This document shows, piece after piece, positions 2,017 through 63,427 of a stretch of DNA of 64,000 nucleotides (position 1 is the first letter of the stretch; each line of letters opens with the position of its first letter). This DNA comes from Methylococcaceae bacterium. GTDB lineage: Bacteria > Pseudomonadota > Gammaproteobacteria > Methylococcales > Methylomonadaceae. The notes under the pieces are model-generated. The model saw nothing but the letters and a program-made list of their open reading frames with translations. It did no database searches and was not told the DNA's origin. Location: contig JADKAL010000006.1 of NCBI GenBank assembly GCA_016715325.1, forward strand, positions 62,001 through 126,000, given 5' to 3'. Made by a program: the position numbers and the translations under genes.

Positions 2017-2571
2017 ATGAACAGAATCACCCTGCCTACCTCAGAGCAAACCCCTGCAGCCACTTTGCCCTTGCTGGATGCGGTCAAAAAGCAACTGGGT
2101 GTTGTGCCCAATCTAATGAAATTAGTGGGCAATAGCTCCGCCGCCTTGGAAGGCTACTTAAGCCTCAATGGCGCCTTAAGCAAAGGGGTATTGGATGCCA
2201 AAACCCGCGAACGCATTGCCTTGGCGATTGCCGAATTCAATGGCTGTGGTTATTGCCTGTCCGCCCACACGTATCTGGGCAAAAACGTTGCCAAGCTGGA
2301 TGATGTTGAAATCGCGGCGAACCGTAACGGCCACTCATCCGACCTGAAAGCGGCGGCTGCCGTCCATTTTGCCACCCGCGTGGCGCTGGAGCGTGGACAT
2401 GTTTCGGATGCCGACCTTAATGCCGTCAAGGCGGCGGGTTACAGCCAGGCTGAGATTGTTGAAATTGTCCTGCATGTCGCCTTGAATACCTTAACCAACT
2501 ACATCAACGAAGTCGCCCAGACCGAGATTGACTTCCCTGTCGTTAACCCGAACACACGCGCAGCAGCATAA
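2017..2571 (+). CDS. AhpD-like / carboxymuconolactone decarboxylase family protein
   Basis: This 184-residue protein carries the peroxidase-type CMD motif IAEFNGCGYCLSAHTYLG, with the redox pair Cys77 and Cys80 and the proton-relay His84. Family members are all-helical oligomers that reduce peroxides or alkylhydroperoxide reductase partners through the CxxC pair. It is the first gene of a plus-strand group followed at 29 bp by an alpha/beta hydrolase and then a PNPOx-like gene. The group is divergent from a LysR gene. This context suggests an oxidative or xenobiotic stress operon, which is inference. Confidence 0.85.
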   Translation: MNRITLPTSEQTPAATLPLLDAVKKQLGVVPNLMKLVGNSSAALEGYLSLNGALSKGVLDAKTRERIALAIAEFNGCGYCLSAHTYLGKNVAKLDDVEIAANRNGHSSDLKAAAAVHFATRVALERGHVSDADLNAVKAAGYSQAEIVEIVLHVALNTLTNYINEVAQTEIDFPVVNPNTRAAA

Positions 2572-2599
2572 AGCCTTAATGCTGTCTTAGGAGATTGTC

Positions 2600-3571
2600 A
2601 TGAATTACAAATATTTTCTACTTAATATTCTTGCTTTGATATTGTTATCAGCACCGCCCCTAGTAACCGCCAAACGCACGAGTAATGCGAAAGCCGTTGC
2701 TGTTCCAGTACAGCTGAGTTATCACACCGCTAATGTCGATGGCGTGGAGGTGTTTTATCGTGAAGCGGGTGCGAAAAGTGCGCCGACACTGGTACTGTTG
2801 CACGGTTTCCCGACTTCGTCGCACATGTTCCGTAACCTTATCCCACAATTGGCCGACAAGTACCATGTCATCGCGCCCGATTATCCCGGTTTTGGCCAAA
2901 GTGCTAGCCCTGAGCGCGATAAGTTCGCCTATACCTTTGACAATTACGCCAAAGTGGTTGATAAACTAATCCAGCAACTCGACCTAAAACGCTATGCCTT
3001 GTATGTGATGGATTACGGTGCGCCCGTTGGTTTCCGGCTCGCGGCAGCCCATCCGGAAAAAGTGACCGCGCTGATTGTCCAGAATGGCAACGCGTATAAT
3101 GAAGGGCTGGAGCAGTTCTGGGATCCGATCAAGGCTTATTGGAAGACAGGTGGGATGACCGAACGCGAAGCCATCCGTTGGTTGACGTCCATTAAGGCGA
3201 CGAAATGGCAGTACACGAACGGCGTTAACGACACCTCACTGGTCAGCCCTGATACCTGGACGGTAGACCAGGCGCTGCTCGACCGTCCGGGCAATGCCGA
3301 AATCCAGTTAGACCTGTTCTACGACTACCGTACAAACATTCCCTTGTATCCGCAATGGCAAGCTTATTTCCGGCAGCATAAACCGCCAACGTTGGTGGTT
3401 TGGGGCAAGAATGACGCGATCTTTGTCGCCGCAGGTGCCGCGCCCTACAAGCGTGACCTTCCCGGTGCGGAAATACATTTGTTGGATACTGGCCATTTTG
3501 CCCTGGAGACGCATGGTAACGATATTGCTAAATTGATACGTGATTTTCTTGGCAAGCACCTTAAGCCTTAA
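2600..3571 (+). CDS. Exported alpha/beta hydrolase (epoxide hydrolase/haloalkane dehalogenase-like)
   Basis: The protein has 323 residues with an N-terminal signal sequence ([18 protein letters not shown]) and a clear ribosome site (TTAGGAG). The oxyanion motif LLHGFPTSS is at 67-74. The nucleophile elbow VMDYGAP places an aspartate (Asp138) where esterases carry serine, as in epoxide hydrolases and haloalkane dehalogenases. The catalytic histidine is His299 in [11 protein letters not shown]. The cap domain lies between about 160 and 240. It is probably periplasmic and acts on small epoxides, halides or esters; the substrate is unknown. It sits in the AhpD-like operon. Confidence 0.85.
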
Positions 3572-3587
3572 CAATGAAGCAATAATG

Positions 3588-3610
3588 CCCGCCGACAGCG
3601 CGTCGGCGGG
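3588..3610. other. Intercistronic hairpin
   Basis: A perfect 9-bp stem (CCCGCCGAC / GTCGGCGGG) with a 5-base loop lies 17 bp after the hydrolase stop. No T-run follows, so it is more likely an mRNA-stabilising or partial attenuation hairpin than an intrinsic terminator. Confidence 0.5.
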
Positions 3611-3666
3611 ATTCGGTTCATCAATAGGCACAAACATAAATTACTCGAACAATATAGGAGGCTCAG

Positions 3667-3966
3667 ATGGCACGCGCATTTTCAGAAATCGCATTCACGG
3701 ATTCAGTCAGGTCAATGCAAAGCCGCTACGGGTCGCGCACAGCCTATGCAAAGTTTGACTTCGCCGAAGACCGCCGAGACCGTCTTAGCGAGAATGAAAT
3801 CGAATTCTTGGCTGAACGCGACAGCTTCTACATCGCAACGGTTGGCGAAAACGGCTGGCCTTATGTCCAGCATCGGGGCGGGCCGAAGGGCTTCCTGAAA
3901 GTATTGGATGATAAAACCATTGGCTTGGCCGATTTCAGAGGCAACAAGCAATTGATCTTGCCCTGA
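3667..3966 (+). pseudogene. Pyridoxamine 5'-phosphate oxidase-like FMN-binding protein, truncated by IS3
   Basis: The start is well placed behind AGGAGG. The 99 residues match the N-terminal half of the PNPOx-related flavoproteins: helix SMQSRYGSRTAYAK, then ERDSFYIATVGENGWPYVQHRGGPKGFLKVLDD and LADFRGNKQLI, the first strands of the split-barrel FMN fold. Homology stops at the left end of an IS3 element, where TGA closes the frame. No continuation is found on the far side of the element, so the 3' half was deleted rather than simply separated. It is the third gene of the AhpD/hydrolase operon. Confidence 0.8.
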
Positions 3967-3971
3967 TTTCA

Positions 3972-5187
3972 CGGACACTCCACTAAGCGATTTTTTCGGC
4001 TTCAAACGCTTCCGGGCTGAGATAGCCCAGTTTTGAATGAAGCCGTTTGCGATTGTAATATACTTCGATATATTCGAACACCTGGGACTTAGCATCAGAA
4101 CGGGTCTTAAAGCGTTCACCATGAATAGCTTCGACTTTGAAACTGTGGTTCCAGCTTTCCATGGCGGCGTTATCATAACAGTCGCCTTTTTTTACTCATG
4201 CTGCAAATCAGCTGATGTTTTCTGAACAGCGTTTGGTAAACGGCTGAACAATATTGGCTGCCCCGGTCAGAATGAACTATCACACCCTTCGGCATCTTCC
4301 GATTCCATAACGCCATGATAAGGGCATCGCACACTAAAGTTGCCGTCATGCGCTCGGCGATTGCCCAGCCAATGACCCGCCTCGAATAAAGCTCAAGCAC
4401 GACCGCCAGGTACAGCCAGCCTTCGTCCGTCCAGATATAAGTGATGTCCGACACCCACTTTTGGTCGGGCTTGGCTGCACTGAAATCCTGACCTAGCAGA
4501 TTGGGCGCAACCGGCAAGGAATGCTTGCTGTTGGTGGTCGCCTTGTATTTCTTGGCCGCCTTCGCCCTAAGGCCATTGATCCGCATGATCCGGGCGACGC
4601 GGTGGCGGCTCGCCAAAATGCCTTCGGCCTAAGCCTGCGGGCGACCCTGGGCGCACCGGGACGTCCTTTCTCGTCATCGAAAACACGCTTTATTTCAATC
4701 TTAAGCGACTGGGTCGATCGCTCCCTAGCAGAATGTGGCCTGCGTTCCCAGGCGTAATAGCCACTGCGCGACACCGACAGCAGGCGGCACATCATGCCCA
4801 CCGGGAATTGCGTTTCATTAGTCTTGATCATGGCGTACTTCACTTGGGCAGTTTCGCGAAGTACGCCGCCGCCTTTTTTTAGGAAGGCAACCTCGTCTTC
4901 CAGGCGGGCGTTTTCACGCTTAAGCCTAGCCATTTCAGCTTGCTGGAGCTTTTGCTCTTCAAAGGGTTGCCCTGTTTGCCGACGTTTTGCACGCCAGGCA
5001 TACAAGGTCGCCTCTGTAAGCCCTAAATCTTTCGATACCGTCGGAATACCGTCCCGATCAGCACGTTCCAATGCTTGCTCTTTAAACTGTGGCGTGTATT
5101 TGTTTCGTACAATCTGTAGGTTTGGTTCTTTTTTGGTTTTCATTATTCACCTCGGTTTTAGAGATTACTCTCTTAGCCGAGTGTCCG
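3972..5187. mobile_element. IS3-family insertion sequence (about 1.2 kb)
   Basis: Imperfect terminal inverted repeats begin CGGACACT at 3972 and end AGTGTCCG at 5187, with the similarity running inward as CTAAG. The length and the OrfA/OrfB content are typical of IS3. The two flanks belong to unrelated fragments (PNPOx on the left, an unknown reading frame on the right), so an adjacent deletion accompanied or followed insertion. No target duplication is visible. Confidence 0.8.
3983..5143 (-). pseudogene. IS3-family transposase (OrfA/OrfB), multiply frameshifted
   Basis: OrfA starts at 5143 (MKTKKEPNLQIVRNKYTPQFK) with a helix-turn-helix and leucine-zipper segment. The rve-type catalytic domain follows ([20 protein letters not shown], final YLSPEAFEAEKIA). 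At 4882-4892 the usual A6G slippery site carries seven A residues, so OrfA and OrfB are fused without ribosomal frameshifting. One base is missing near 4622 and an extra A occurs near 4188, each breaking the frame. The enzyme is therefore inactive as written. Confidence 0.85.
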
Positions 5188-5469
5188 CTAGAGTGGGGCA
5201 AGATCACCTCATTTCCTGTCCGTGCCGGCGAACTATTGGAAAGGGCGACCATTTTGGGCATGAACGTGACCGTTCGGAAAAAAAGCAATGAACCCAATCA
5301 ACCCAATACCGATGCAACCGTTATAAGAGAGTATGAGAAAAATGGTTTGAACTGCAAGGAAGTAATTACCCACTATTATATTAATCAATCAAACGAAAGC
5401 ATTATTTTAACAATATGCTATCGAGATCGAGACGGCATCAATCCGGGTTGGTTTATGGATACAGATTAA
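5188..5469 (+). pseudogene. Unknown gene, 3' fragment next to IS3
   Basis: An open frame enters from the IS3 right end (EWGKITSFPVRAGELLERA) and continues for about 90 codons to TAA at 5467-5469, ending DRDGINPGWFMDTD. I do not recognise the family. The 5' part is missing, and it does not match the truncated gene on the left of the element. Confidence 0.4.
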
Positions 5470-5703
5470 TTTGCCAATACAAATTTAACTTTCGTTCTAT
5501 CGGAAATATAGCGACCGACCGCTATCGCTAAGGTCAGACTTTATGAAATTTTATTTCATCGACTCTTTTGGGTCGGTTTTTCACTGTCACTTTAAGCTAA
5601 GATTGAAATTTTTGACGGTCGGCTAAAGAGAAGTTTATTAAATTAGATTTTCGTCTATAAACACCTTCTAAAATATTTGCGGATTTCCATGTCATCCTTT
5701 AAA
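5470..5703. other. Intergenic, no gene seen
   Basis: AT-rich DNA with an interrupted palindromic stretch near 5509-5530 (GCGACCGACCGCTATCGC). No reading frame or RNA gene is supported. Confidence 0.4.
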
Positions 5704-5733
5704 CTAGTCATATATCTAGTCATATATCTAGTC
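5704..5733. promoter_or_regulatory. Tandem 12-bp repeats upstream of toxin-antitoxin (probable operator)
   Basis: CTAGTCATATAT occurs twice in tandem (5704-5715, 5716-5727), followed by a half copy CTAGTC (5728-5733). It ends just before the AGGAGG ribosome site of the antitoxin. Spaced repeats in this position are typical operators for antitoxin autorepression. Confidence 0.6.
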
Positions 5734-5746
5734 GTAGGAGGTAAAT

Positions 5747-6001
5747 TTGAAAATTTGGCAAGTACAAGACGCAAAAGCCCGTTTCAGTGAATTGTTAGAT
5801 GCCTGTGTTAGTGAAGGGCCTCAGGTTGTAACCCGGCGTGGGACAGAAACTGCCGTCCTTGTCCCTATCGGCGAGTGGAAACGACTCAATAATGCCGCTC
5901 GTCCTTCTCTCAAGGAACTACTTATGTCAAATGAAGCCCGTTTTGACTTCGATATACCACCGCGCGGAAGAGCGAAGCGTCGATCAGCACCAGCTTTTTA
6001 A
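5747..6001 (+). CDS. Type II antitoxin, Phd/YefM family
   Basis: This 84-residue protein starts with TTG, chosen because AGGAGG (5736-5741) lies 5 bp upstream and no ATG is available in the correct frame. The N-terminal fold MKIWQVQDAKARFSELLDACVSEGPQVVTRRGTE is the classic Phd/YefM DNA-binding domain. The C-terminal tail (FDIPPRGRAKRRSAPAF) is the basic, flexible toxin-neutralising region. It lies 7 bp before a PIN-domain toxin. It should repress its own promoter through the tandem repeats upstream. Confidence 0.9.
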   Translation: MKIWQVQDAKARFSELLDACVSEGPQVVTRRGTETAVLVPIGEWKRLNNAARPSLKELLMSNEARFDFDIPPRGRAKRRSAPAF

Positions 6002-6008
6002 AGAAGCC

Positions 6009-6413
6009 ATGTTTCTTCTTGATACCAATATCATTTCTGAACTAAGAAAAAAACGTCCGCATGGATCAGTTGTCGCTTGGCTGGAGAGTGTTTCGGATAA
6101 TGACCTCTTTATTTCAGCGGTAACACTTGCCGAAATACAGGCGGGCATTGAAATAACACGAGAGCAAGATCCAGCTAAGTCAGCTGAAATTGAGCTTTGG
6201 CTCGACCAAGTAGGATCAACCTATAATGTTTTGCCTATGGATACCTCTACATTTAGGCTTTGGGCAAAGATGATGCATCGTCAGTCAGATACGGTTTATG
6301 AAGATGCGATGATTGCTGCGACTGCAATCGTTCATAAGTTAACTGTGGTTACCCGGAATGTACGTGACTTTGAACGATTCCAAGTGCCTATCCTTAATCC
6401 TTTCGAGAGTTAA
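6009..6413 (+). CDS. Type II toxin, VapC/FitB-like PIN-domain ribonuclease
   Basis: This 134-residue PIN-domain protein starts at the ATG after the antitoxin stop. Acidic metal-binding residues are visible: Asp5 in MFLLDTNIISEL, Glu in LAEIQAG, Asp in YEDAMIAATA and Asp in VTRNVRDF. Family members cleave tRNA or mRNA with Mg2+ and are held inactive by the antitoxin. A longer frame starting at 5838 is an upstream extension through the antitoxin gene and is not preferred. The module is complete and lies between IS remnants. Confidence 0.9.
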   Translation: MFLLDTNIISELRKKRPHGSVVAWLESVSDNDLFISAVTLAEIQAGIEITREQDPAKSAEIELWLDQVGSTYNVLPMDTSTFRLWAKMMHRQSDTVYEDAMIAATAIVHKLTVVTRNVRDFERFQVPILNPFES

Positions 6414-6545
6414 ATCTTATAAATACAATAGCTTATAATTTATTCAAGCTAGCATATTTTGATTTCTCAATACCGGACTGTGGCTAAAATCAACCAGTGC
6501 AGACTAGATCGGCCAGGAAGAGACATTCGCCCGTTCCCTCTTGGT

Positions 6546-7534
6546 CAATGCCGTTAAGTTAAGCCTCACCGATATTGCCGCCTGGGTTTGGGTCTGATCC
6601 AGTTTTTGGGTCTAGGAGCTTTTCGGTTGGGTCGTTTGCGTTCGAGAGTTCTGGCGTAGAGTTCAATCAGTTCCAAAATATGGTCGTGCGGCACACGTTG
6701 GATCAGCCATGCGAACAGCCGGGTTTTCAGAGAGTTGAGAATGTAGGTGAGGTTGCGGATAATAATGCGCCGCTTTATCCTCCGGCAGCCTATCGTAAGC
6801 CTCGCGTGCGAGGGCTTCCGCCAAATTCGCGGTGAATATTTTGGCATGAATGTCCTGGCGTATCGATTCGGGTAGTTCGCCGGTGAATTGTTCCAGGTAA
6901 AGCCGGTGCTTAAGTACTTTGAAGGCTTCTTCGATGTTCCAGCGGGCGTGGTACAACTCGACGAAGGCTTGGGCAGGATAGATGTCCCTGTCGGTCAGCG
7001 TGGTCGCCAGGACTTCGCTATGGCCGGTGGACAGGATCACCTCGATCAAGCGTAGTGTCAGACTTTTGTGCGTCAATGTCTGACCGGCTGCTTGGGCTTG
7101 GCGATGGGCTGAAGCGGATACGGGTAAGGTGATGACGGTTTCGGGCAGGCCTGACCGCAGAAAGGCTTCCACGGCGGGCCATTGGTTGCCGTCCATTCGG
7201 GCGAGGAAAGGTAAGCCGCGTTGTTGTAGCAGGAAAACAACCATACCGCCGGAAAACCACGATCCATGACCAACAGGTCATCGCTGGCCAGATGTGGCAG
7301 AAGTTGCGCCAATAACGCCCGCTCGCCATTATCAAAACGCGCGATGACGGTTTTAATCATCAGCTTTGAGGCGGTCGTAAACAGGCCCAAGACACGCGCC
7401 AACACATAAGGCTGACCGCCGCTGTCGGTTTGAACGCCGAACGCTTCTCTGTTTTCCAGCCAGGGCGGTAAGCGGAAGGTCGTTGAATCGGTGGCAACTA
7501 AACGCAGCCCTTGCCAGCGCGGTTCAGGCAGGCG
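6546..7534 (-). mobile_element. IS4-family element, copy 1, truncated by IS3
   Basis: The left end CAATGCCGTTAAGTTAAG at 6546 is identical to the ends of the full copies at 50895 and 54974. The sequence is nearly identical to the copy at 54974 until 7534, where an IS3 element interrupts it. The 5' third of the element (transposase N-terminus) is absent beyond the IS3. Confidence 0.85.
6566..7534 (-). pseudogene. IS4-family transposase, C-terminal two thirds
   Basis: Conserved IS4 DDE motifs are present: DDLLVMDRGFPAVWLF (second Asp) and YHARWNIEEAFKVLKHRLYLEQF (Y-(2)-R-(3)-E-(6)-K signature). The end is RPKNWIRPKPRRQYR. The frame is broken by a missing G near 7229 and an extra base near 6757 relative to the 54994 copy. 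The N-terminal part is lost at 7534. It is not functional. Confidence 0.85.
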
Positions 7535-18522: not shown

Positions 18523-18809
18523 GCAAATAGCGAATATAACTTATTGATTATTTGAATGATGTCTTAGCTTTTCCAAAGCCGGCAGTGGCTCATACCAACT
18601 AATTTTGTAAGATCGGCCAATTGAAGCTTGTCAAACTTAACAGATTTTGGCATCCGTTACTCTAAATGCAGCTATTCAATTAAGCACTAAGTGGTTTCTT
18701 TAAAACCATTCATAAATATTATCAATGCCACTATGAATAATGATCATTTAACAGTTCGCGTGGGATAGCGTACTTTGTTGCTAAATTCATTTTTTAAGTG
18801 GAGATACGC
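18523..18809. other. Upstream region of the MRJP gene
   Basis: AT-rich DNA with no reading frame or recognisable element apart from the GGAG ribosome site at 18800-18803. Confidence 0.3.
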
Positions 18810-19901
18810 ATGAAGACGTTACCTAAATTGACAGCCCTTTGTTTTTTACTCTTGTTCGCGATTGGGGCGAATGCTAAATCAAACTTCGACATTATCGCCG
18901 AACTCGATAGTGGCCCTGGCAATGTCACGGTAACAGATGATGGACGTATTATTTTGAGTTTGCATCAGTTTTACCAACCAAAATATACCGTGGTTGAATT
19001 TAAGAACAATGTACTTACACCGTTTCCGAATAAAGAGTTGGCGGATGTGGATTCAAAAGCGGCGATGAAACTTGATTCTGTGCTAGGAATTCGCTCAGCG
19101 AACGGGGTCGTGTGGATGCTCGATAATGGCATGCGTAGCGGGGTTTCGCCTAAGCTGGTGGGATGGGATATTAAGGCCGATAAGTTGCATCAGGTCATCA
19201 TGTTGCCATCTCCGATTGCCCCCAAGGATGCCTTCGTAAATGATTTTGCGATTGATGCCAGCCACAATCATATATTTATCAGCGACCCGGCGGGCGGAGC
19301 AAATGCTGGGTTGATAGTCGTCAATCTCAACACAGGTAAGGCAAGACGCGTGCTGGAAGGGCATTGCAGCGTGATCCCTGAAAATCTCGATTTGATAATC
19401 GATAAGGTTCCGGTTCAAGTCAAGGATAAATCAGGGAAGCTAACCCGTCCGCATATCGGGGTTAATCCGATTACCGAAGACTTGAATAATGAGTGGGTCT
19501 ATTTCGGGCCGATGCACGGACATAGCCTGTATCGGGTAAAAGCAGATGACCTAGTTAACGAAACACTGGATGCTAAGGCTTTAGCAAGCCGCGTTGAACG
19601 CTACAGCGACAAACCAATTTCGGATGGGATTACTATAGACAAGGACAATAATATCTATCTGGGTGAATTGGCGGAAAACGCGATTGGTGTTATTACGCCG
19701 GATAAAAAATATAAAAAATTAGCACAGAGTGCAGAGCTATCATGGGTGGATTCATTCAGTTTTGGTTCGGAAGGCAAGTTATATGCGATTGTCAATCGAT
19801 TACATCAATCGGCAACCCTAAATGGAGGGGTTGAAATATCAAAACCGCCGTATTATCTTTTATCTGTAAAATCATTAGCTTTCGGGTTATCTGGGCGATA
19901 G
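18810..19901 (+). CDS. Exported major royal jelly protein/yellow-family (SMP-30-like beta-propeller)
   Basis: About 363 residues from ATG 18810, preferred over an upstream GTG because GTGGAG lies 7 bp before it. A signal peptide (MKTLPKLTALCFLLLFAIGANA) is followed by a six-bladed propeller with MRJP hallmarks (DDGRIILSLHQFY, NGVVWMLDNGM, NDFAIDASHNHIFISDPA, NEWVYFGPMHGHSLYRV). Bacterial homologues are periplasmic or extracellular binding or lactonase-like proteins of mostly unknown substrate. It lies 31 bp upstream of a small membrane protein, probably in one transcript. Confidence 0.85.
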   Translation: MKTLPKLTALCFLLLFAIGANAKSNFDIIAELDSGPGNVTVTDDGRIILSLHQFYQPKYTVVEFKNNVLTPFPNKELADVDSKAAMKLDSVLGIRSANGVVWMLDNGMRSGVSPKLVGWDIKADKLHQVIMLPSPIAPKDAFVNDFAIDASHNHIFISDPAGGANAGLIVVNLNTGKARRVLEGHCSVIPENLDLIIDKVPVQVKDKSGKLTRPHIGVNPITEDLNNEWVYFGPMHGHSLYRVKADDLVNETLDAKALASRVERYSDKPISDGITIDKDNNIYLGELAENAIGVITPDKKYKKLAQSAELSWVDSFSFGSEGKLYAIVNRLHQSATLNGGVEISKPPYYLLSVKSLAFGLSGR

Positions 19902-19932: not shown

Positions 19933-20325
19933 ATGAATGATGAAGAAAAGCTCAAATATTTGAAAATTGCACTTTATGTAATAGGCGTTATTTTTATAGT
20001 CGGTGTACCCGTATTGATGATTTGGCTTTGGCCTAGTGGTTGGGGTTGGACACCGCCGCAACACGAATATGAACACATGATTATGGGGGTCTACGCCACT
20101 TTGGGTGTGTTTTTAATTCTTGCTGCAAAAGACCCGTTAGCTAATGCAAGCCTAATTTGGTTTACAGTTTGCTCCAGCATTATCCATGGAGGAATTATGT
20201 TGGTTCAAGCGATTAATGATGATACTGACCGAGACAATCTAATAGGTGATGTGCCTGCCTTATTTGTTGTAGCCTTTGTCCTGTGGTATCTAATGCCCAA
20301 AAGGTCTCGGAAACAGCTTTATTAA
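19933..20325 (+). CDS. DUF6632-like membrane protein
   Basis: A 130-residue protein with four membrane segments (about 9-32, 47-64, 72-89 and 104-122). Conserved-looking motifs are PSGWGW, YEHMIMGVYATLGVFLILAAKDPLAN and LIWFTVCSSIIHGGIM. These match my recollection of the DUF6632 family. Function unknown. A ribosome site (AGGAGA) precedes ATG 19933. It follows the MRJP-family gene and is convergent with a LysR gene. Confidence 0.75.
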   Translation: MNDEEKLKYLKIALYVIGVIFIVGVPVLMIWLWPSGWGWTPPQHEYEHMIMGVYATLGVFLILAAKDPLANASLIWFTVCSSIIHGGIMLVQAINDDTDRDNLIGDVPALFVVAFVLWYLMPKRSRKQLY

Positions 20326-20360: not shown

Positions 20361-21284
20361 TTATAAACCATCAATACCCTGGCCTGCCACTGTGATTTTA
20401 TTCCTTAACCACTGATGCGCTGGGTCTTTATCGCGCAACGGATGCCAGATCATGACCAAATCATAGCCTGGCAGTTCGATAGGCACGGGAAATATAGCCA
20501 GCGGAGCGATTTTGGTAAATTGCTCGGCAATCCGGTACGGGAGTGACAGGATCATATCGGTTTTGGCAACAATCAACGGCGCAGAAAGGAAATGCGGAAC
20601 GATGAGTTTAATACGCCGTTCCAAGCCCAGTTCGGTTAATTCTTGGTCGATAATGCCGACATTGCTGCCCGTCCGTGAAATCAACATGTGCGGAACAGCC
20701 ACAAATTCTTCTAAGGAAGGCGGTTTGCTTATCAATGGATGATCCTTCCTAACCACGCAAGCCATTTTGTCGCTAAACAGATATTGGCGGTGCAAATGGG
20801 CTGGCGGGTTCAACACCGATTCAAAACCCAGCACCACATCCAGACTGCCGATTTCCAGTTGTGCGGCCGGAAATGTCATCTCAGTTCGTTTAACATGAAT
20901 ATCAATGCCGGGAGCCGTTTTCTCGATCAGCCCCGACAACTCAGGCATTAGCAGGAATTCAATGTAATCGGTAGCGGCAAGCACAAAACGCCGCTGGCTG
21001 ATTGCCGCATCAAATGCTAGGGGCGGTTGAATAAGCCGTTCGGTTTCTGCCAATAACGCCCTGACCGGATCAATCAAAGCTAACGCCCGCTCCGTCGGTT
21101 TCATGCCGGATGGCGTTTTCACCAGCAACGGATCGTCCAGTTGCTGCCGCAACTTGTGCAAGGTGTGGCTCATCGCCGATTGGGTGATGAACATCTGCTC
21201 CGCTGCGCGGGTGACGTTCAACTCCCGCATCAACACGTCGAAAGCCACTAAAAGATTGAGGTCAAATGTTCTTAAATTGGACAT
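20361..21284 (-). CDS. LysR-family transcriptional regulator (NodD/NahR-like), divergent from pxmABC
   Basis: Intact at 307 residues. The HTH is at 18-45 (LNVTRAAEQMFITQSAMSHTLHKLRQQLDDPLLV). The effector domain resembles the NodD/NahR group (RRFVLAATDYIEFLLMPELSGLIEKTAPGIDIHV, FSDKMACVVRKDHPL). It is divergently arranged with pxmA across a 246-bp gap. LysR proteins often control the adjacent divergent operon, so it is the best local candidate regulator of pxmABC. That link is inference from layout. Confidence 0.9.
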   Translation of the reverse strand: MSNLRTFDLNLLVAFDVLMRELNVTRAAEQMFITQSAMSHTLHKLRQQLDDPLLVKTPSGMKPTERALALIDPVRALLAETERLIQPPLAFDAAISQRRFVLAATDYIEFLLMPELSGLIEKTAPGIDIHVKRTEMTFPAAQLEIGSLDVVLGFESVLNPPAHLHRQYLFSDKMACVVRKDHPLISKPPSLEEFVAVPHMLISRTGSNVGIIDQELTELGLERRIKLIVPHFLSAPLIVAKTDMILSLPYRIAEQFTKIAPLAIFPVPIELPGYDLVMIWHPLRDKDPAHQWLRNKITVAGQGIDGL

Positions 21285-21530
21285 ACCACGGCTTATGAGA
21301 ATGTTTCGGTAAGACTTACGGTTCTATGGTAGCCGAAAACTCGATTGTTACCGGTATGAATTGCTTGAATGACCTCATGAATTTATAACATTTCACAAAT
21401 ATGCTGCGAATCTCTAAGTTATTGGCAAGCGTGCCGAAGGAGTTAAGGTTTATCTCTGCCTCTTGAGGCATTTATTTCCAAGGCACGCGCTTTTTAAACT
21501 CACGCTCATTATTCGTTTAGGAGACTCGCG
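21285..21530. promoter_or_regulatory. LysR-pxm divergent control region
   Basis: It contains a perfect inverted repeat TGCCTCTTGAGGCA (21457-21470). A wider pair, AGCGTGCC and GGCACGCG, lies about 55 bp apart around it. The pxmA ribosome site AGGAGA is at 21520-21525. The repeats may be regulator sites or a leader hairpin. Confidence 0.45.
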
Positions 21531-22283
21531 ATGTCAGCCAATTCATCAACCCGAACATTTCGGCCCTATACCGGGGAAAAGGCGCGGATCGCCCGCGCTT
21601 ACGATTACCTTGTCCTGGTATTGGCGCTATTCCTGTTTATCGGTTCATTCCACCTGCATTTTGCGCTCACGGTTGGCGACTGGGATTTTTGGGTGGACTG
21701 GAAAGACAGGCAATGGTGGCCAGCGGTCACGCCTATTATCGGCATTACCTTCCCGGCAGCAGTGCAAGCCGTGCTGTGGACTAATTTCCGTCTGCCCTTA
21801 GGTGCAACCTTGTGTGTTGCCTGTTTGTCGATAGGCACCTGGATTGCCCGCATCTTTGCTTACCATTACTGGAATTATTTCCCCATCAACATGGTGCTGC
21901 CATCGACCATGCTGCCCAGCGCACTCGTATTGGACGCTGTCTTGATGTTGAGCAATAGTCTGACAGTTACCGCGATTTTCGGCGGCTCAGCGTTTGCATT
22001 GTTGTTCTATCCCAGCAACTGGCCGATCTTCGGCATGTTTCATGTCCCCGTTGAAGCGGGCAATAGCCAGTTGACCGTGGCCGATATGTTCGGCTTCCAG
22101 TACATTCGTACCGGGATGCCGGAATATCTTCGAATTATTGAGCGTGGGACATTACGGACATATGGGCAAGTTGCGGCACCGCTCTCTGCTTTCTTTTCAG
22201 CCTTAATTTGTACCTTGATGTATACCTTATGGTGGTATATCGGCAAGTGGTTTGCGACCACCCGTTACCTTAAAAGAATCTAA
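21531..22283 (+). CDS. pxmA: Copper membrane monooxygenase subunit A (PxmA)
   Basis: The 250-residue length is near that of PmoA. Hallmark motifs are GDWDFWVDWKDRQWWP (around residues 49-64), then VTPIIGITFPAA and NWPIFGMFHVPVE. Seven or so hydrophobic segments span the protein. PmoA/AmoA is the membrane subunit next to the PmoC copper site in the trimeric enzyme that oxidises methane or ammonia. Assignment to the Pxm branch rests mainly on gene order A-B-C, the layout known for pxm in gammaproteobacterial methanotrophs; pmo is C-A-B. The 8-bp gap to pxmB indicates one transcript. The substrate of pXMO is unsettled. Confidence 0.9.
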   Translation: MSANSSTRTFRPYTGEKARIARAYDYLVLVLALFLFIGSFHLHFALTVGDWDFWVDWKDRQWWPAVTPIIGITFPAAVQAVLWTNFRLPLGATLCVACLSIGTWIARIFAYHYWNYFPINMVLPSTMLPSALVLDAVLMLSNSLTVTAIFGGSAFALLFYPSNWPIFGMFHVPVEAGNSQLTVADMFGFQYIRTGMPEYLRIIERGTLRTYGQVAAPLSAFFSALICTLMYTLWWYIGKWFATTRYLKRI

Positions 22284-22297
22284 GGGAGGAGATGACG

Positions 22298-23743
22298 ATG
22301 AAAAAGCTATTTAATAACACATCAATGTATCAGTTGAATCCGTCCATGGTTCGACAAGCTCTCGGCAACTGCTCCATGCGTTGCCCTACCTCCTGCATCC
22401 ATGCAGTTGACCATGAACGGATTCAACAAGTCACTTCTGGACATAGCCAAAAAGAATATTACAGTATGAATAAGATTACTTCCGTTCGTCCTGAGCCTGT
22501 CGAAGGACAACTTGAGAAACTACTAAAGTGTCTATTGTTCCTGGGGCTGATTCTTTCAGTCTATATGCTCACCTTACAACCCGTCATGGCGCATGGGGAA
22601 AAAAACTTGGAGCCTTACGTCCGCATGCGCACTATCCAATGGTATGACGTGCAATGGTCCCAGCAAAAGTTTAACGTAAACGATGAAGTCTCAGTAACGG
22701 GCAAATTTCATGTAGCGGAGGACTGGCCGATTAGCGTACCCAAACCGGATGCGGCCTTCTTAAATATCTCAACCCCTGGCCCAGTCCTGATCCGTACCGA
22801 GCGCTACCTAAACGGCAAGCCCTATATGAACTCGGTCGCCTTGCAACCGGGCGGTGACTACGATTTCAAGGTGCTCCTGAAGGGACGTTTACCCGGACAT
22901 TACCATATCCACCCCTTCTTTAATTTGCGCGATGCAGGGCAAGTGATGGGGCGGGGCGCATGGCTTGATATTGCTGGCAATGAAGCAGACTTTACCAATA
23001 ACATCCAAACCATTAACGGCGAGATGGTCAATATGGAAACTTATGGGCTGGGTAACGGCATTTTCTTTCATAGTTTCTGGGCATTGCTGGGAACGGCTTG
23101 GCTGCTCTGGTGGGTACGCCGCCCCTTATTCATTGCCCGTTACCGGATGCTGCAAGCAGGTTTGGAAAATGAATTGGTTACCCCATTGGACAGGAATATC
23201 GGCAAAGTCATATTAGTCGGTGTGCCGGTGTTGGTGTTTGCATTTTACACCATGACGGTCAACAAATACCCCAAAGCGATACCCTTACAAACCTCGTTGG
23301 ACCAAATCCTGCCTCTGTCCGCTAAAGTCAATGCCGGGGTAGTCGATGTTGAAACCTTGCGCGCTGAATACCGGATACCGGAGAGGGCGATGAAATTAAG
23401 CTTAAAGATCAAGAATGGCAGCGATAAGCCGATACAACTTGGCGAGTTTGCAACCGGTAGTGTTCGTTTCCTTAACAAAGCTGTCCCTGTACCGGAACAA
23501 AGCAATGCCGAAAGCGTAGTTGCACCGGAAGGCTTGAACTTGGACAACCCAGCACCGATTCAACCCGGCGAACAACGCACGGTGTTAATGACCGCTGCCG
23601 ATGCCTTGTGGGAATCAGAACGCTTGGATGGCCTGATTAACGATGCCGACAGCCGGATCGGTGGTCTGGTCTTTTTCTTTGACCCCGAGGGTGAACGTTA
23701 CGTCTCCAGCATCACGGCTGCCGTCATCCCTAAATTCAATTAA
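22298..23743 (+). CDS. pxmB: Copper membrane monooxygenase subunit B (PxmB) with extended leader
   Basis: The start at 22298 is preferred because GGGAGG lies 8 bp upstream; an ATG at 22292 is too close. Numbering from 22292, the CuB ligands are His101, His205 and His207 (AHGEKN; GHYHIHPFF), with spacing 104 and 2 exactly as in Methylococcus PmoB (33, 137, 139). The mature protein has two soluble cupredoxin domains joined by two membrane helices (about 233-255 and 286-305). The leader before His101 is about 68 residues longer than usual because a REP-like block is inserted in frame. The hydrophobic signal (LLKCLLFLGLILSVYMLTLQ) therefore begins about 75 residues in. Confidence 0.9.
   Translation: MKKLFNNTSMYQLNPSMVRQALGNCSMRCPTSCIHAVDHERIQQVTSGHSQKEYYSMNKITSVRPEPVEGQLEKLLKCLLFLGLILSVYMLTLQPVMAHGEKNLEPYVRMRTIQWYDVQWSQQKFNVNDEVSVTGKFHVAEDWPISVPKPDAAFLNISTPGPVLIRTERYLNGKPYMNSVALQPGGDYDFKVLLKGRLPGHYHIHPFFNLRDAGQVMGRGAWLDIAGNEADFTNNIQTINGEMVNMETYGLGNGIFFHSFWALLGTAWLLWWVRRPLFIARYRMLQAGLENELVTPLDRNIGKVILVGVPVLVFAFYTMTVNKYPKAIPLQTSLDQILPLSAKVNAGVVDVETLRAEYRIPERAMKLSLKIKNGSDKPIQLGEFATGSVRFLNKAVPVPEQSNAESVVAPEGLNLDNPAPIQPGEQRTVLMTAADALWESERLDGLINDADSRIGGLVFFFDPEGERYVSSITAAVIPKFN
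22333..22512. repeat. REP-like elements inside the pxmB leader
   Basis: An inverted pair GTTGAATCCGTCCATGGT (near 22333) and GACCATGAACGGATTCAAC (near 22412) encloses about 60 bp. A second REP core, GTTCGTCCTGAGCCTGTCGA, follows at 22490 and is translated as the telltale VRPEPVEG. The cores match the intergenic REP family elsewhere in this window. The insert keeps the pxmB frame. Confidence 0.75.
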
Positions 23744-23768
23744 CTTAGCAACTTAAGGAGTAACACTC

Positions 23769-24542
23769 ATGGCTACCACAACCGAACAAGTCAAGGTAAT
23801 GACGAATCAAAATAAGTTTCCACCCTGGTACTTGAAAGATTTATACCGGTACCTGTCTGCATTTGCCGTACTGACTGTCATCTATATGGGATTTCGCATT
23901 TATCAAGGTGCTTTTGCTGTCTCAACCGGGCTGGATTCCACTGAACCCGCTTTTGATGTCTACTGGATGCGGCTGCTTAACTTTGAACTCGTGTTCATTA
24001 CATTATTCACCAGCATAGCATGGGGATGGCTATGGTTTACCCGGGACAAGAACCTGGATAAACTTGAACCGAAGGAAGAAATCCGCCGCTACTTAACCCT
24101 GACCATGTGGATCAGCGTTTACACCTTTGCCGTGTACTGGGCGGGCAGCTATTTCGCCGAGCAGGATAACTCCTGGCATCAAGTCGCCATCCGCGATACC
24201 CCGTTCACGGCCAACCATATCATTGAGTTTTACTTTAACTTTCCGATGTATATCATCCTGGGCGGTTGTGCCTGGTTGTATGCCAGAACCCGCTTGCCGC
24301 TCTATGCCAATGGTATTTCGTTGCCTTTAACCTTGGCGGTGGTTGGTCCTTTTATGATCTTAGTCAGTGTAGGCTTCAACGAATGGGGGCATACTTTCTG
24401 GTTTCGGGAGGAGTTTTTCGCTGCACCCATCCACTGGGGTTTTGTGATCGGGGTATGGTTTGCCCACGGTGTAGGAGGAATTTTGCTACAAGGGGTCACC
24501 CGTCTGATTGAATTGCTCGATGGGCTCGAAGAAGCGGCTTGA
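23769..24542 (+). CDS. pxmC: Copper membrane monooxygenase subunit C (PxmC)
   Basis: 257 residues behind a strong AAGGAG. The conserved copper/active-site ligands of PmoC are all present: Asp133, His137 and His150 in EQDNSWHQVAIRDTPFTANH, with spacing 4 and 13 identical to Methylococcus Asp156/His160/His173. About six membrane segments are seen (for example 30-47, 70-90, 112-130, 150-172, 180-203 and 222-243). It is the last gene of the operon, 25 bp after pxmB, and a strong terminator follows. Intact ligands predict a catalytically competent complex. Confidence 0.92.
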   Translation: MATTTEQVKVMTNQNKFPPWYLKDLYRYLSAFAVLTVIYMGFRIYQGAFAVSTGLDSTEPAFDVYWMRLLNFELVFITLFTSIAWGWLWFTRDKNLDKLEPKEEIRRYLTLTMWISVYTFAVYWAGSYFAEQDNSWHQVAIRDTPFTANHIIEFYFNFPMYIILGGCAWLYARTRLPLYANGISLPLTLAVVGPFMILVSVGFNEWGHTFWFREEFFAAPIHWGFVIGVWFAHGVGGILLQGVTRLIELLDGLEEAA

Positions 24543-24638: not shown

Positions 24639-24694
24639 CCACGTGAATCCCGTTCGCCCTGAGCTTGTCGAAGGGTTGAATGGGATTCACGTGG
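24639..24694. repeat. REP-like hairpin 1 downstream of pxm
   Basis: Perfect 13-bp arms CCACGTGAATCCC (24639-24651) and GGGATTCACGTGG (24682-24694) enclose the REP core GTTCGCCCTGAGCTTGTCGA. The outer arm bases are specific to this site. Confidence 0.75.
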
Positions 24695-24811: not shown

Positions 24812-26029
24812 ATGACGAGAATCAAGCGCACGGACATCCACTATGCATGGACTGTCCTCGCTATAACTTTCGCTTGCCTCTTCGTCGCTTCCGCACTTCG
24901 TTCAATCCCCGGCATCATCATGTTGTCTCTTGAGCAGGAGTTTCACTGGGACAGGGAAACCATCAGCGGCGCGGTGGCGGTCAACCTGTTCTTGTTCGGG
25001 CTTGCAGGGCCGTTCCTTGGCCGGTTGATGGATATGTACGGTGTCAAAGCCATCACTATCTTGATGATTGTTCTGGTGACTATAGGAGCAGGCGGCAGTG
25101 TCCTGATGCAACAACCTTGGCAATTGTACCTGCTTTGGGGCGTCGTCATCGGTGCAGGTTCGGGCGGGACTTCCATGATCATGGGATCTGCGGTCGTTAA
25201 CCGCTGGTTCCACGAACGCCGCGGGTTGGCTTTGGGAATTTTGGGCGCGGCGTTTTCGTCCGGGCAATTGATATTTACGCCAGTCCTGATGAAGCTGAAC
25301 ATCCTCGAAGGATGGCGCATTTCAACCTTGTTTATCGTCGTACTACTGGCTTTGGTGGTGCTCCCTTTAGTGATCTGGCTTATGGCTGATAGTCCTAGTT
25401 TAAAGGGTATGCGCCCTTACGGAGCAAACGGGCATACGGAAACAACCCTTAGCCCTGATCCAAATCCGATGTGTAAAGCAATGGCTAACCCGCAATTCTG
25501 GTTACTAGCCCTAAGTTTTGGAATCTGCGGCCTGACAACGTCGGGGCTGTTCCAGACCCATTTAATCACTCACGGCATCGAACATGGCTTCCCTGAAATG
25601 ACAATGGCGGTTTCATTGGGGTTGATGGGGGCAACGGATATATTTGGCACGATATTGTCCGGCTGGCTCTGCGACCGCTTTGGAAAACGCTGGCCGCTGG
25701 CAGTTTATTACCTGCTTCGGGGAACAACCTTGCTGCTGTTGCCTTATGTCGAATCGACCGGACAATTGATGGCGTTTTCTGTCGTATATGGGCTGAATTG
25801 GTTATCGACCATTCCGGCCACATCGGCACTCACTGCCGATTTGTTCGGCAAACAAAATGTCGGGGTCGTATTCGGTTGGATTTGCTTCGCCCATCAGGTC
25901 GGCGCGGCGATAGCGTCTTATGGCGCAGGCTACCTTCATCAAATAGCGGGAAATTACACCCTGGCCTTTATGGCTTCCGGCCTGTTTGCCTTTGTGGCTA
26001 CTGGGCTTGTAGTTTTAATTAATGAATAA
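24812..26029 (+). CDS. MFS transporter
   Basis: 405 residues with about 12 membrane helices. The loop GRLMDMYGVKAIT between helices 2 and 3 and GWLCDRFGKRWP in the second half are the MFS GxLaDrxGrk signatures. The overall pattern resembles the monocarboxylate/oxalate-formate group. It lies 270 bp after the pxm terminator with two REP hairpins between, so it is probably a separate transcript. The substrate is unknown; an export or uptake role linked to pxm is only a positional guess. Confidence 0.85.
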   Translation: MTRIKRTDIHYAWTVLAITFACLFVASALRSIPGIIMLSLEQEFHWDRETISGAVAVNLFLFGLAGPFLGRLMDMYGVKAITILMIVLVTIGAGGSVLMQQPWQLYLLWGVVIGAGSGGTSMIMGSAVVNRWFHERRGLALGILGAAFSSGQLIFTPVLMKLNILEGWRISTLFIVVLLALVVLPLVIWLMADSPSLKGMRPYGANGHTETTLSPDPNPMCKAMANPQFWLLALSFGICGLTTSGLFQTHLITHGIEHGFPEMTMAVSLGLMGATDIFGTILSGWLCDRFGKRWPLAVYYLLRGTTLLLLPYVESTGQLMAFSVVYGLNWLSTIPATSALTADLFGKQNVGVVFGWICFAHQVGAAIASYGAGYLHQIAGNYTLAFMASGLFAFVATGLVVLINE

Positions 26030-26133: not shown

Positions 26134-26379
26134 GTGCGCCGTGCTAAGGCGGTGCTTTACCAGTGGGTGAGAGACCAACCCGGCTAAATCGCTCCTGCCG
26201 GAAGCATTCGGGGCAGTCATGGAGGTAACGAAATGGCTGAAGTCCCCGAGTTAAAGGGTCGCTTTAGGCGATCCAGCGAGTGTACAGGCTTTAATGTGAG
26301 TGAACCCTGAGCAAGCCTCGAAAAGGTCGATGCGCAGGCCGACCTGACCACCCTTTCGGGGAAGGCTGATATGTCTGGG
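26134..26379 (+). mobile_element. Group II intron 5' fragment (probable)
   Basis: The segment starts GTGCGCC, matching the 5' consensus of bacterial group II introns. It continues with a folded, RNA-like non-coding sequence (CATTCGGGGCAGTCATGGAGG, CCCTTTCGGGGAAGGCTGAT) typical of domain I. There is no intron-encoded reverse transcriptase or domain V/VI. It stops where an IS21-like end begins, so it is a 5' remnant. Confidence 0.5.
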
Positions 26380-61821: not shown

Positions 61822-61832
61822 AACGCTTATTT

Positions 61833-63383
61833 TCAGTTTGGGATAAATTTAGGTAAAACCGGTTCAAGTTCTAAAGCAAACGCTTTAAGTCTGTTATCTG
61901 CATCGGCAATGCTTTCATGTTGTCCGACGGGTGTTGTGATGCGCACAAGGGCGCCGTCAGTCCGGTTGAGGAGAAGGGCGTCTTTAAACAAATACCATTT
62001 CATCAAGTATTCGTTTGCTAAGCGTCTGCCGCGTTGCTGGAACCAATAATAGACTAATTGCGTATTGTCTTCTTTCTTTATTACGATTCGATTAATCGGT
62101 AAATCGCCGATTTGCCTTCGGTCGATTTCGCTGATTTGCCAGCCGCCTCCGGGAATACAAACTCGCGGCGAATGGGGCGATACGCCTTTACGCTGGGATT
62201 CGTAATAGGCCGAATAAAAGTTAACTAACTCCGATTTTTCATTTTTGTAGTCGGCGAGAATGTAGTCGGTTAACCCCAGATATTTTGTAACCGATTCATC
62301 CATGTTAGTTTGCTCGCCCTTCCAGTTGCCAAGTTCTGTCGGAAAATTAGGAAATAACGTTCTAGGCGGTATTATTTCTTCACGCTTTCCGATACTGGAA
62401 ACCAATAAGGCGGAAATAGCCAATGCACCGACTGAAGCTATTAAGGGTAAAGACTGTCGTCTTTCTTTTACTTCGAATTGACTGACATCGAGATCTATTT
62501 CCTGGCTTAAACCGAAGATTTCGAAGAGAGATTTTTTATTTTTACCGATGCGGCTTAAAACTGTCATTTCAATAAACAAAACGCCGAAACAAGCCATAAA
62601 CACAATCCAGCCTTCGAAATCGTGAAGGAAGCCTTCGGCCATTGCGATACCCCAATTATCGACTAATACCCCGATCATTCCAATTCGGAAGCTGTTCATC
62701 AATATCGTGATTGGAATAGTCGATAACACAAGAACTACTTTTTTCCAAAAGTCCGCGTCGAATAAATAGGCGCAAATAAAACCCAGACTGAGTAGCGGAA
62801 ACAGATAGCGTAAACCGCTGCAAGCTTCGACAACTTGAAGTTTAAAGTCGCCGAGGTCGATGACGTTGCCTTCCAAGTAGACAGGTATTTGACACCAGCG
62901 GATGAAATAAACCCCCAGTTTCGACGACAGCAATTGCAGATTGGCGGATAAGCTCGCTTCTAGAAAATAAGGTAAAGGTATAGCGAATACCAGCAGTAGA
63001 ATAGGAATCAGGACCGGTTTGCATGCCGGCCAACCCATGACAGCGAGCGTAAGGCCGAGCAATACTATTATCAGCGCGTATTGCGTCAGAATAAAGAGAG
63101 CACTGACTTCGCCGATAATGAAGATAATTAAGGCAAAAACAATAAGACCTAAACCCCACCATGACGGATTAAATTCACTTTGAACGATGATATTTTTTTT
63201 TTGCCAGATAAAATACAGCGTAAGGAACGGCAGTAAATAGCCGTGGCTATATTCTTCTTGTTTGCCCCAACGCAGGATAAGTTCGCTGATGCCTTCCCAA
63301 AATGCGGAAGTCATTAAGCCCAGAGCAACCGCCAGCCAGAGCCACGCTTGCCAATTCATGCGCCAGATAGTGTTTTTATCCAT
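61833..63383 (-). CDS. xrtD: Exosortase with fused EpsI domain (XrtD-like)
   Basis: 516 residues. The N-terminal ~300 form the eight-helix exosortase with the catalytic triad Cys188 (VVEACSGLRYLFP), Arg233 (NSFRIG) and His254 (GFLHDFEGW). The remaining part (about 320-516: FPTELGNWKGEQTNMDESVTKYLGLTDYI, SPRVCIPGGGWQI) is an EpsI-type domain. Exosortases cleave C-terminal PEP/VPLPA-CTERM tags and pass proteins to the cell surface. The fusion suggests the VPLPA-CTERM-specific XrtD type; the exact subtype is my inference. It is followed by prsT and preceded by a glycosyltransferase. Confidence 0.88.
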   Translation of the reverse strand: MDKNTIWRMNWQAWLWLAVALGLMTSAFWEGISELILRWGKQEEYSHGYLLPFLTLYFIWQKKNIIVQSEFNPSWWGLGLIVFALIIFIIGEVSALFILTQYALIIVLLGLTLAVMGWPACKPVLIPILLLVFAIPLPYFLEASLSANLQLLSSKLGVYFIRWCQIPVYLEGNVIDLGDFKLQVVEACSGLRYLFPLLSLGFICAYLFDADFWKKVVLVLSTIPITILMNSFRIGMIGVLVDNWGIAMAEGFLHDFEGWIVFMACFGVLFIEMTVLSRIGKNKKSLFEIFGLSQEIDLDVSQFEVKERRQSLPLIASVGALAISALLVSSIGKREEIIPPRTLFPNFPTELGNWKGEQTNMDESVTKYLGLTDYILADYKNEKSELVNFYSAYYESQRKGVSPHSPRVCIPGGGWQISEIDRRQIGDLPINRIVIKKEDNTQLVYYWFQQRGRRLANEYLMKWYLFKDALLLNRTDGALVRITTPVGQHESIADADNRLKAFALELEPVLPKFIPN

Positions 63384-63427
63384 GCTTATCTATTGAAGTA
63401 AAATTATCTAAGTCTCACAGACTCATG

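Follow-up and report, generated by a model that had tools for sequence, protein, structure and literature searches.

The pxmABC genes encode pXMO, a copper membrane monooxygenase (CuMMO) whose A-B-C gene order, distribution, and unresolved role have already been published (PMC6215863, PMC4678205, PMC7285482, PMC5563964, PMC12810054; also PMC11218250 and PMC6373157). Papers from 2015 to 2021 called its role unknown (PMC4678205, PMC4594100, PMC8630023). Downregulation of pxmABC without tundrenone is reported in a paper that gives PxmABC as genes 3483 to 3486, a set of four that may contain a partner gene (PMC6977074), and both the particulate methane monooxygenase (pMMO) and pXMO are reported to be encoded in 45% of Methylobacter genomes (PMC12810054). 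The closest described systems are the pXMO enzymes of Methylomonas, Methylobacter, Methylomicrobium, Methylocystis, and Crenothrix, which share the A-B-C order, clade, ligands, and host range with the locus analyzed herein (PMC4678205, PMC5563964). The pMMO encoded by pmoCAB belongs to the same family and has the same copper ligands; however, it differs in its C-A-B order, its separate clade, and an identity of only 47-53% in A. Another likeness is the verrucomicrobial PMO3, a CuMMO inside a C3 gene cluster, which is described as an acetone monooxygenase (PMC8630023). PMO3 resembles pXMO in its catabolic setting; however, it belongs to another enzyme group with other partner genes, and a non-methane substrate has been established for PMO3 alone.

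In the present study, we analyzed the pxmABC operon in a 64,000-nucleotide stretch of DNA from a Methylococcaceae bacterium (contig JADKAL010000006.1, positions 62,001 to 126,000), hereafter called the window, to whose first letter all positions refer. The operon is of a known kind, and the original prediction, made from the letters alone, regarded it as a functional pXMO with a LysR gene and an MFS (major facilitator superfamily) gene as local partners. We propose that pXMO is very probably the core of a conserved LysR-controlled module with a shared regulon, based on comparisons of genes and promoters. No description of a LysR, propeller, and MFS module or of a shared operator was found in the accessible pxm literature; most subscription papers, including the 2011 description of pXMO, lay outside the search. 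The features of the module in the window are as follows.

18712-18753, + strand: predicted LysR-type operator of the propeller gene (two AT-N11-AT boxes, 6-bp gap, TTTAACA; two-box match at 18712)
18798-19901, + strand: propeller, a secreted six-bladed beta-propeller protein of the MRJP/Yellow family (PF03022; nearest PDB entry 2qe8)
20361-21284, - strand: LysR-type regulator, NahR/DntR-like, divergent from pxmABC (PF00126, PF03466)
21356-21397, + strand: predicted LysR-type operator of pxmABC (AT-N11-AT boxes at 21356-21370 and 21377-21391, 21 bp apart)
21392-21397 (-35, TTCACA) and 21415-21420 (-10, TAAGTT), + strand: sigma70-like promoter of pxmABC, read by eye
21531-22283, + strand: pxmA (A), intact open reading frame (ORF) (Pfam AMO, 4.7e-121)
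22292-23743, + strand: pxmB (B), intact ORF, 483-aa frame, with an insertion resembling a repetitive extragenic palindrome (REP) in the N-terminal coding part (Pfam Monooxygenase_B, 2.1e-158)
23769-24542, + strand: pxmC (C), intact ORF (Pfam AmoC, 3e-92)
24812-26029, + strand: MFS transporter, monocarboxylate or oxalate-formate type (PF07690, 2e-40)

The predicted operator and the conserved neighborhood

The pxmABC and propeller promoters carry the same kind of predicted two-box operator at the -35 element. LysR regulators use T-N11-A boxes; the regulator of the window has the helix-turn-helix and substrate domains of this family, and boxes of this type lie in the divergent promoter. At pxmABC, the boxes abut the -35 element, although neither this hexamer nor the -10 hexamer was among the matches of a consensus scan. 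We collected 48 LysR-pxmA intergenic regions and aligned those shorter than 420 nt; the conserved blocks were AT-N11-AT, a gap of 6 or 8, a second AT-N11-AT, and TTTnACA. A single box with TTTnA was present upstream of pxmA in 56/56 regions (1.4 in shuffled sequences) and upstream of the propeller in 39/50 (shuffled, 2.2). The two-box form had a gap of 6 in 32 and a gap of 8 in 15 of the 56 pxmA upstream regions, and in 15 and 13, respectively, of the 50 propeller upstream regions, against shuffled means of 0.007-0.02. In the window, the pattern ATGAA-N7-CATTTMACA with at most one mismatch had two matches only, both perfect, at 18733 (18733-18753) and 21377, whereas 0.06 were expected.

The exact pattern was then counted in 30 whole genomes, with the places assigned by hand. 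It had 58 matches, 31 at pxmA promoters, 17 at propeller promoters, and 10 elsewhere; accordingly, 48/58 were at pxmA or the propeller, and one of the propeller matches (G013:C222), near a contig end, was assigned by sequence only. The exact operator was found at pxmA in 30/30 genomes, and twice in G008. The reversed pattern had no matches in the same genomes. On the Methylomagnum ishizawai plasmid pRS11DPr1, two-box matches were located exactly at the pxmA and propeller places, with the strict pattern absent. Two points count against a shared regulon. The strict two-box pattern is missing from 9/56 pxmA and 22/50 propeller upstream regions, and the presence of the operator at pxmA is partly by construction because the pattern was derived from these promoters. 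What is informative is that the pattern is rare elsewhere and that it occurs at the propeller.

A third operator match recurring in seven genomes was considered as a regulon member and rejected; it sits at the start of a coding gene, which from its motif appears to be DEAD-box-helicase-like. Of the remaining matches elsewhere, two fall within other ORFs, and the last (G005:C169) is an orphan with no propeller gene.

The usual partners of pxmABC are a divergent LysR gene and a gene for a predicted secreted propeller, with a carboxylate-type MFS gene in gammaproteobacteria. Related loci were the best 80 of 220 related stretches. We tallied neighbors in 51 of them (L001-L050 and L053), counting each gene only where the flank sufficed. 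LysR was present in 45/46 testable loci and the propeller in 38/40; the two misses were L050, in which the gene lies just outside the counted span, and L022, in which it lies on the partner contig L123. An MFS gene stood beside pxmC in 24/27 testable gammaproteobacterial loci, in contrast to 0/4 alphaproteobacterial loci. The commonest order is propeller, LysR (on the opposite strand), pxmABC, and MFS. L050 has the same gene set in another order, with the A and C frames broken in the assembly. The plasmid pRS11DPr1 (NZ_AP019784.1; non-mobilizable type) carries the propeller, LysR, pxmABC, and MFS genes, and its pxmC and MFS genes overlap. Among the eight records listed out of 36 plasmid records, no other had a match with coverage above a few percent.

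Clustering of ORFs of at least 90 aa into families found in at least 6 of 56 regions, namely, the window, L001-L050, and five others (L122 is the same contig as L022, and L123 is its split partner), gave A in 52, B in 52, LysR in 50, C in 49, the propeller in 47, MFS in 36, a tautomerase in 9, and an MR/MLE enzyme in 6. The tautomerase, which resembles malonate semialdehyde decarboxylase, was found in 13 loci by tblastn; the MR/MLE enzyme is mandelate-racemase-like, and only some loci add either of them.

The LysR and MFS genes named by the original prediction are real genes and were rightly regarded as partners; however, the propeller, the shared operator, and a leader hairpin described below had been missed. 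The MFS gene had also been placed beyond a pxm terminator, which a consensus scan did not recover. The gap between pxmC and MFS is 8 to 383 nt in 34 loci, and 56 nt or less in 15/34. The closest PDB match of the MFS protein is the L-lactate transporter 6g9x (E 7.3e-19), followed by an oxalate:formate antiporter. The best PDB matches of the LysR protein include 2esn, DntR, and PcpR, and regulators of the NahR/DntR/PcpR kind are thus among its nearest solved structures; in an NCBIfam scan, no regulator model passed its cut-off for this protein. The propeller belongs to the MRJP/Yellow family by its PF03022 domain and six-bladed fold. Its listed start is a GTG at 18798, and an ATG at 18810 is likelier, giving a signal peptide. 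For the nearest PDB entry, 2qe8 (Ava_4197), the function is assigned only as "putative hydrolase". The pxm propellers differ from 2qe8, MRJP, and dopachrome-conversion propellers in that they usually occur once per genome and adjoin pxm.

Joint presence was counted by hand in a sample of 151 genomes belonging to the same family as Methylobacter tundripaludum SV96, with Pxm defined as an A protein of at least 79% identity. In this sample, 36/151 genomes had Pxm, 41 had a propeller (PF03022), and 34 had both (Fisher p 1.7e-24, a value that ignores shared ancestry). In the two Pxm-only genomes (G042 and G070), the contigs with pxm are short (5.4 and 5.6 kb) and stop ahead of the propeller position. 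Four of the seven propeller-only genomes retain remnants of the module minus pxmA (L112, L113, L114, and L115). The others have a truncated propeller alone (L117), a 31% relative (L116), or an intact lone propeller (L111), the assembly of the last having no A homologue at 1e-20. Among the genomes reached through the loci, 37/38 have a PF03022 gene, and the exception, G038, has just a 68%-type A homologue. The propeller was rare in a class-wide sample (9/369 genomes at 1e-30 or better, one being G014). In L113, an unrelated gene block (2307-6878) takes the place of pxmABC, with a truncated LysR on one side and an intact MFS gene on the other; this block looks like a mobile insert.

The pXMO of the window and its relatives

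The window encodes an intact A-B-C CuMMO, and its predicted CuB, CuC, and CuD ligand sets are complete. The three intact frames lie on the + strand in the order claimed for them, and B and C follow A in 45/45 adequately flanked loci. As had been proposed, PxmB has His101, His205, and His207, which correspond to His33, His137, and His139 of Methylococcus capsulatus PmoB in an alignment to 3rgb, and PxmC has the CuC set Asp133, His137, and His150. PxmC also carries the CuD set Asn204, His208, and His222, which was absent from the earlier account. The C and B ligand columns had the identical residue across the compared Pxm, Pmo, and Amo rows, with gaps only at the ends of tblastn fragments.

The ratio of nonsynonymous to synonymous substitutions (Ka/Ks), wherever computable, fell between 0.01 and 0.10 for pxmA, the mature part of pxmB, pxmC, and the LysR, propeller, and MFS genes in comparisons with L001, L002, L004, L005, L008, and L011 (Methyloglobulus, Crenothrix, and Methylococcaceae relatives), and the operon is thus under strong purifying selection; the propeller comparisons with L008 and L005 were saturated and gave no values. 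The nucleotide identity of pieces of the pxm region to L001-L004 is about 84-94%, which, with the 98-99% identity of the A protein given below, makes the host a Methyloglobulus or a near relative of it. The Ka/Ks values and the intact ligands support the designation of this pXMO as functional, and the operon is probably a working one.

The mature enzyme shows no visible difference from known pXMO, and the REP-like insertion in pxmB is a feature of the window copy. The distance from the pxmA stop to the first mature PxmB residue is 308 nt in the window versus 161 nt in L002. The surplus of approximately 147 nt relative to L002 is REP-like and in-frame, and the frame remains open. The pxmB start and the efficiency of secretion are uncertain because this surplus precedes the signal-peptide core, and it is uncertain whether the long form of PxmB is made or translation begins at an inner ATG. 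The REP-like pxmB stretch (22292-22580) also occurs in L007, the sole other case among the loci listed. A second REP-like copy is located at 24658, between pxmC and MFS.

Quick maximum-likelihood trees (IQ-TREE; A, 46 rows; B, 45; C, 38), with support from the Shimodaira-Hasegawa-like approximate likelihood ratio test (SH-aLRT) only, place A, B, and C of the window with pXMO, in agreement with the assignment made previously. In the A tree, the window is within Pxm (97), and Pmo (99) and betaproteobacterial Amo (100) are separate clades. The B tree is similar (Pxm 98, Pmo 99, Amo 100). In the C tree, the Pxm, Pxm69, and Pxm57 lineages group together at 98, with just 33 for Pxm alone and 99 for Pmo; the longest stem branch is that of Amo. 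The window is thus outside the betaproteobacterial Amo clade and the Pmo clade, and its order is A-B-C rather than C-A-B. A placement inside a canonical clade, which would have spoken against the original prediction, was not found for Pmo or betaproteobacterial Amo, the reference groups of these trees; hydrocarbon monooxygenases and other Amo (Nitrosococcus, archaeal, and comammox) were not among the rows. A new Pxm subclade for the A protein of the window, suggested by a gap in protein-search identities, was dropped; the protein is 98-99% identical to Methyloglobulus-type sequences and lies in the main Pxm clade. Three near relatives of Methyloglobulus type (genomes G001, G003, and G004) all carry a pmoA-like gene in addition to pxmA.

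Among 83 group-invariant columns of C, the odd one out was PxmC at 12, Pmo at 5, and Amo at 3, and 11 of the 12 PxmC columns lie within 8 residues of a copper ligand (proximity p 0.047). Residues 45 and 103 of PxmA are Ala and Thr in the main Pxm rows, in contrast to Met and Glu in the rows of Pmo and Amo. Residue 103 fails in a wider row set and only residue 45 passes; we give no weight to either difference. A search for literature on the active-site structure found no paper.

Two divergent sister lineages of Pxm were recognized. One is a 68-69% type (L051 and L052); the other, found in Methyloglobulus, is a 57-58% type (L054 and L055). A second pxmA-like gene in M. morosus has been mentioned previously (PMC4678205). 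The 57-58% pxm-like operons of Methyloglobulus (L054:1536-5476 and L055:5430-9387) have their own propeller directly upstream and a divergent TetR-like gene, and that of L054 adjoins a classical LysR-pxmA. A 69% pxm-like operon of Methylomonas methanica R-45363 (L052:9974-12781) lacks a propeller and stands beside a TetR-like gene and broken C-like fragments (L137:5010-5472). We presume the TetR-like identity of the genes in L052, L054, and L055 from sequence features of that family. The 57% lineage has no operator site of its own: the one match in L054 is the classical pxmA promoter, and L055 has none. In the 68-69% lineage, L052 has two loose two-box matches, neither at the oxygenase genes, and L051 has none.

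Possible role of pXMO and its partners

We infer that both operators are bound by LysR, which would respond to a small organic effector and turn on pXMO and the propeller together. The substrate of pXMO would be small and hydrophobic and would be oxidized in the membrane; the propeller may bind or act on the product in the periplasm, and the MFS transporter may move a carboxylate product. The tautomerase and the MR/MLE enzyme, where present, would act further downstream. We tentatively suggest that the substrate is a small organic compound, either in place of methane or in addition to it. With the same reserve, pXMO may not be primarily a methane enzyme and may instead be the membrane oxygenase of a LysR-induced small-organic module, in which the product passes to a lactonase- or tautomerase-like propeller, and a carboxylate MFS transporter, some lineages adding a decarboxylase-type tautomerase and an MR/MLE enzyme; the module would be gained and lost as a unit, also on a plasmid. 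This suggestion draws on the company of LysR, tautomerase, MR/MLE, and carboxylate-carrier genes, on the odd residues of PxmC, and on the precedent of PMO3.

Several points weigh against this reading. The propeller fold serves several functions, and its relatives include lactonases and a dopachrome-conversion enzyme. No single pathway is required because MFS is missing in the counted alphaproteobacteria and the tautomerase and MR/MLE genes are missing in most loci, including the window. MR/MLE-like homologues matched in 15/289 alphaproteobacterial genomes, G030 included; they give no substrate clue because no module partner was found in eight other alphaproteobacterial regions that contain them. 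The proximity of Pxm-specific residues to the C copper ligands is marginal. Moreover, pxm expression has been tied to nitrite and hypoxia in methane-fed cells in one study (PMC4594100).

This link in expression fits another reading, which is quite possible: pXMO would be an auxiliary enzyme of methane oxidation that serves when oxygen is low and nitrite or nitrate is present. The MFS transporter would then export organic acids produced while methane metabolism is short of oxygen, and the propeller would aid maturation or copper handling. The likeness of the MFS protein to lactate and oxalate/formate transporters agrees with this role, the idea of organic-acid export being based on the fermentation physiology of methanotrophs, and the copper ligands are the same in pXMO and Pmo. 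In Methylomicrobium album BG8, pxmA transcripts were 19.8-fold up at 72 h under hypoxia with nitrite; however, they stayed three orders of magnitude below those of pmoA, and hypoxia by itself did not raise them (PMC4594100). Furthermore, most odd residues at group-invariant columns belong to PxmC. Also against an auxiliary role, we know of no counterpart at pmoCAB loci to a LysR regulon dedicated to the enzyme, which tautomerase and MR/MLE genes join in some lineages.

It is very unlikely that pXMO is an ammonia monooxygenase, as NCBI model names have it. The three proteins of the window pass the cut-offs of the NCBIfam models AmoA, AmoB, and AmoC_BACT (381.5 versus 290, 613.8 versus 336, and 403 versus 319 bits, respectively), and the plasmid record NZ_AP019784.1 is annotated in this manner. 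However, in A and B, the Pxm clade is separate from betaproteobacterial Amo, the Amo type in the trees, and in C, Pxm departs from Amo at near-ligand columns that are the same in Pmo and Amo. The scope of the models seems too wide, and the name "bacterial ammonia monooxygenase" on pXMO is likely a systematic misannotation. That the neighbors are together by shared descent only, in a conserved order without functional meaning, is highly improbable: although all loci come from one Pxm ancestor and the counts are not independent, the order is kept across gammaproteobacteria, alphaproteobacteria, and a plasmid, the rearranged L050 retains the set, the tested partners are under purifying selection, partners decay in four loci without pxmA, and the operator is common to two promoters.

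The proposed LysR-controlled module, with its regulator, two-promoter operator, leader hairpin, and named partners, offers a concrete and testable handle on the role of pXMO. It may also change how pxmA sequences are read in methane surveys.

A probable leader hairpin and other features near the operon

An inverted repeat whose arms covary follows directly after the inferred -10 element, and it is present in most gammaproteobacterial loci.

21429-21488, + strand: candidate hairpin of the pxm leader, located where the mRNA is expected to begin (outer stem, 21429-21435 paired with 21482-21488)

We aligned 46 gammaproteobacterial leaders out of 56 upstream sequences. In the 8-pair stem, 90.2% of cells are paired, and 6/8 pairs show two-sided changes (26 cells). 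None of 500 shuffles reached the covariation score, the number of two-sided cells, or the percentage paired. A covariance model, trained on most of these leaders, ranked the pxm leader as the best match in 13/15 genomes, with nothing else better than E 0.026; since scoring covered just 150 of the 348-863 initial candidates in each genome, this absence of further hairpins is not strict. The model missed the leader in G142 and gave only weak matches elsewhere in the Methylocystis genome G030. The hairpin had no Rfam match up to E 1.

Some results speak against a conserved hairpin. The pair counts describe chosen loci because ten sequences were left out, namely, six alphaproteobacterial loci and L046, L007, L001, and L022, in which the hairpin was unseen or the region was rearranged. 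The pair count was matched by 9/500 shuffles and the pair types by 13/500. A slide by -2 columns gave equal numbers of pairs (6) and cells (26), but with 58.7% paired and a lower covariation score. The consensus of RNAalifold itself is weak (6 pairs, -3.89 kcal/mol).

It is rather unlikely, although a real possibility, that the repeat acts in DNA as a binding site, or terminates transcription, instead of being an RNA element. DNA palindromes also yield compensatory changes; however, the arms of this repeat are separated by tens of nucleotides (46 in the window), and many single-sequence folds pair further inside. In the window, a T run follows the stem; however, it is missing in most alignment rows, as judged by eye.

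One gene between the propeller and LysR is a local insertion, and a family of approximately 155 aa recurs beside pxm modules, after the propeller, pxmC, or MFS. Two members of this family were scanned without a Pfam match.

19933-20325, + strand: DUF6632 membrane protein, local insertion (PF20337, 2.8e-33)
L008:5896-6369: member of the ~155-aa family
L055:9499-9981: member of the ~155-aa family
L021:7838-8299: member of the ~155-aa family
L122:13949-14410: member of the ~155-aa family

The DUF6632 gene had no tblastn match in 125 related loci, and DNA similar to its region (19933-20325) occurs on Nostoc plasmids. A Group II intron domain (RF02003, 95.7 bits) at 26161-26299 directly follows MFS, and transposase-like ORFs come after it. 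Toward the end of the window (59443-63874) are ORFs that, from their sequence, appear to encode an exosortase-like membrane protein and a TPR protein.

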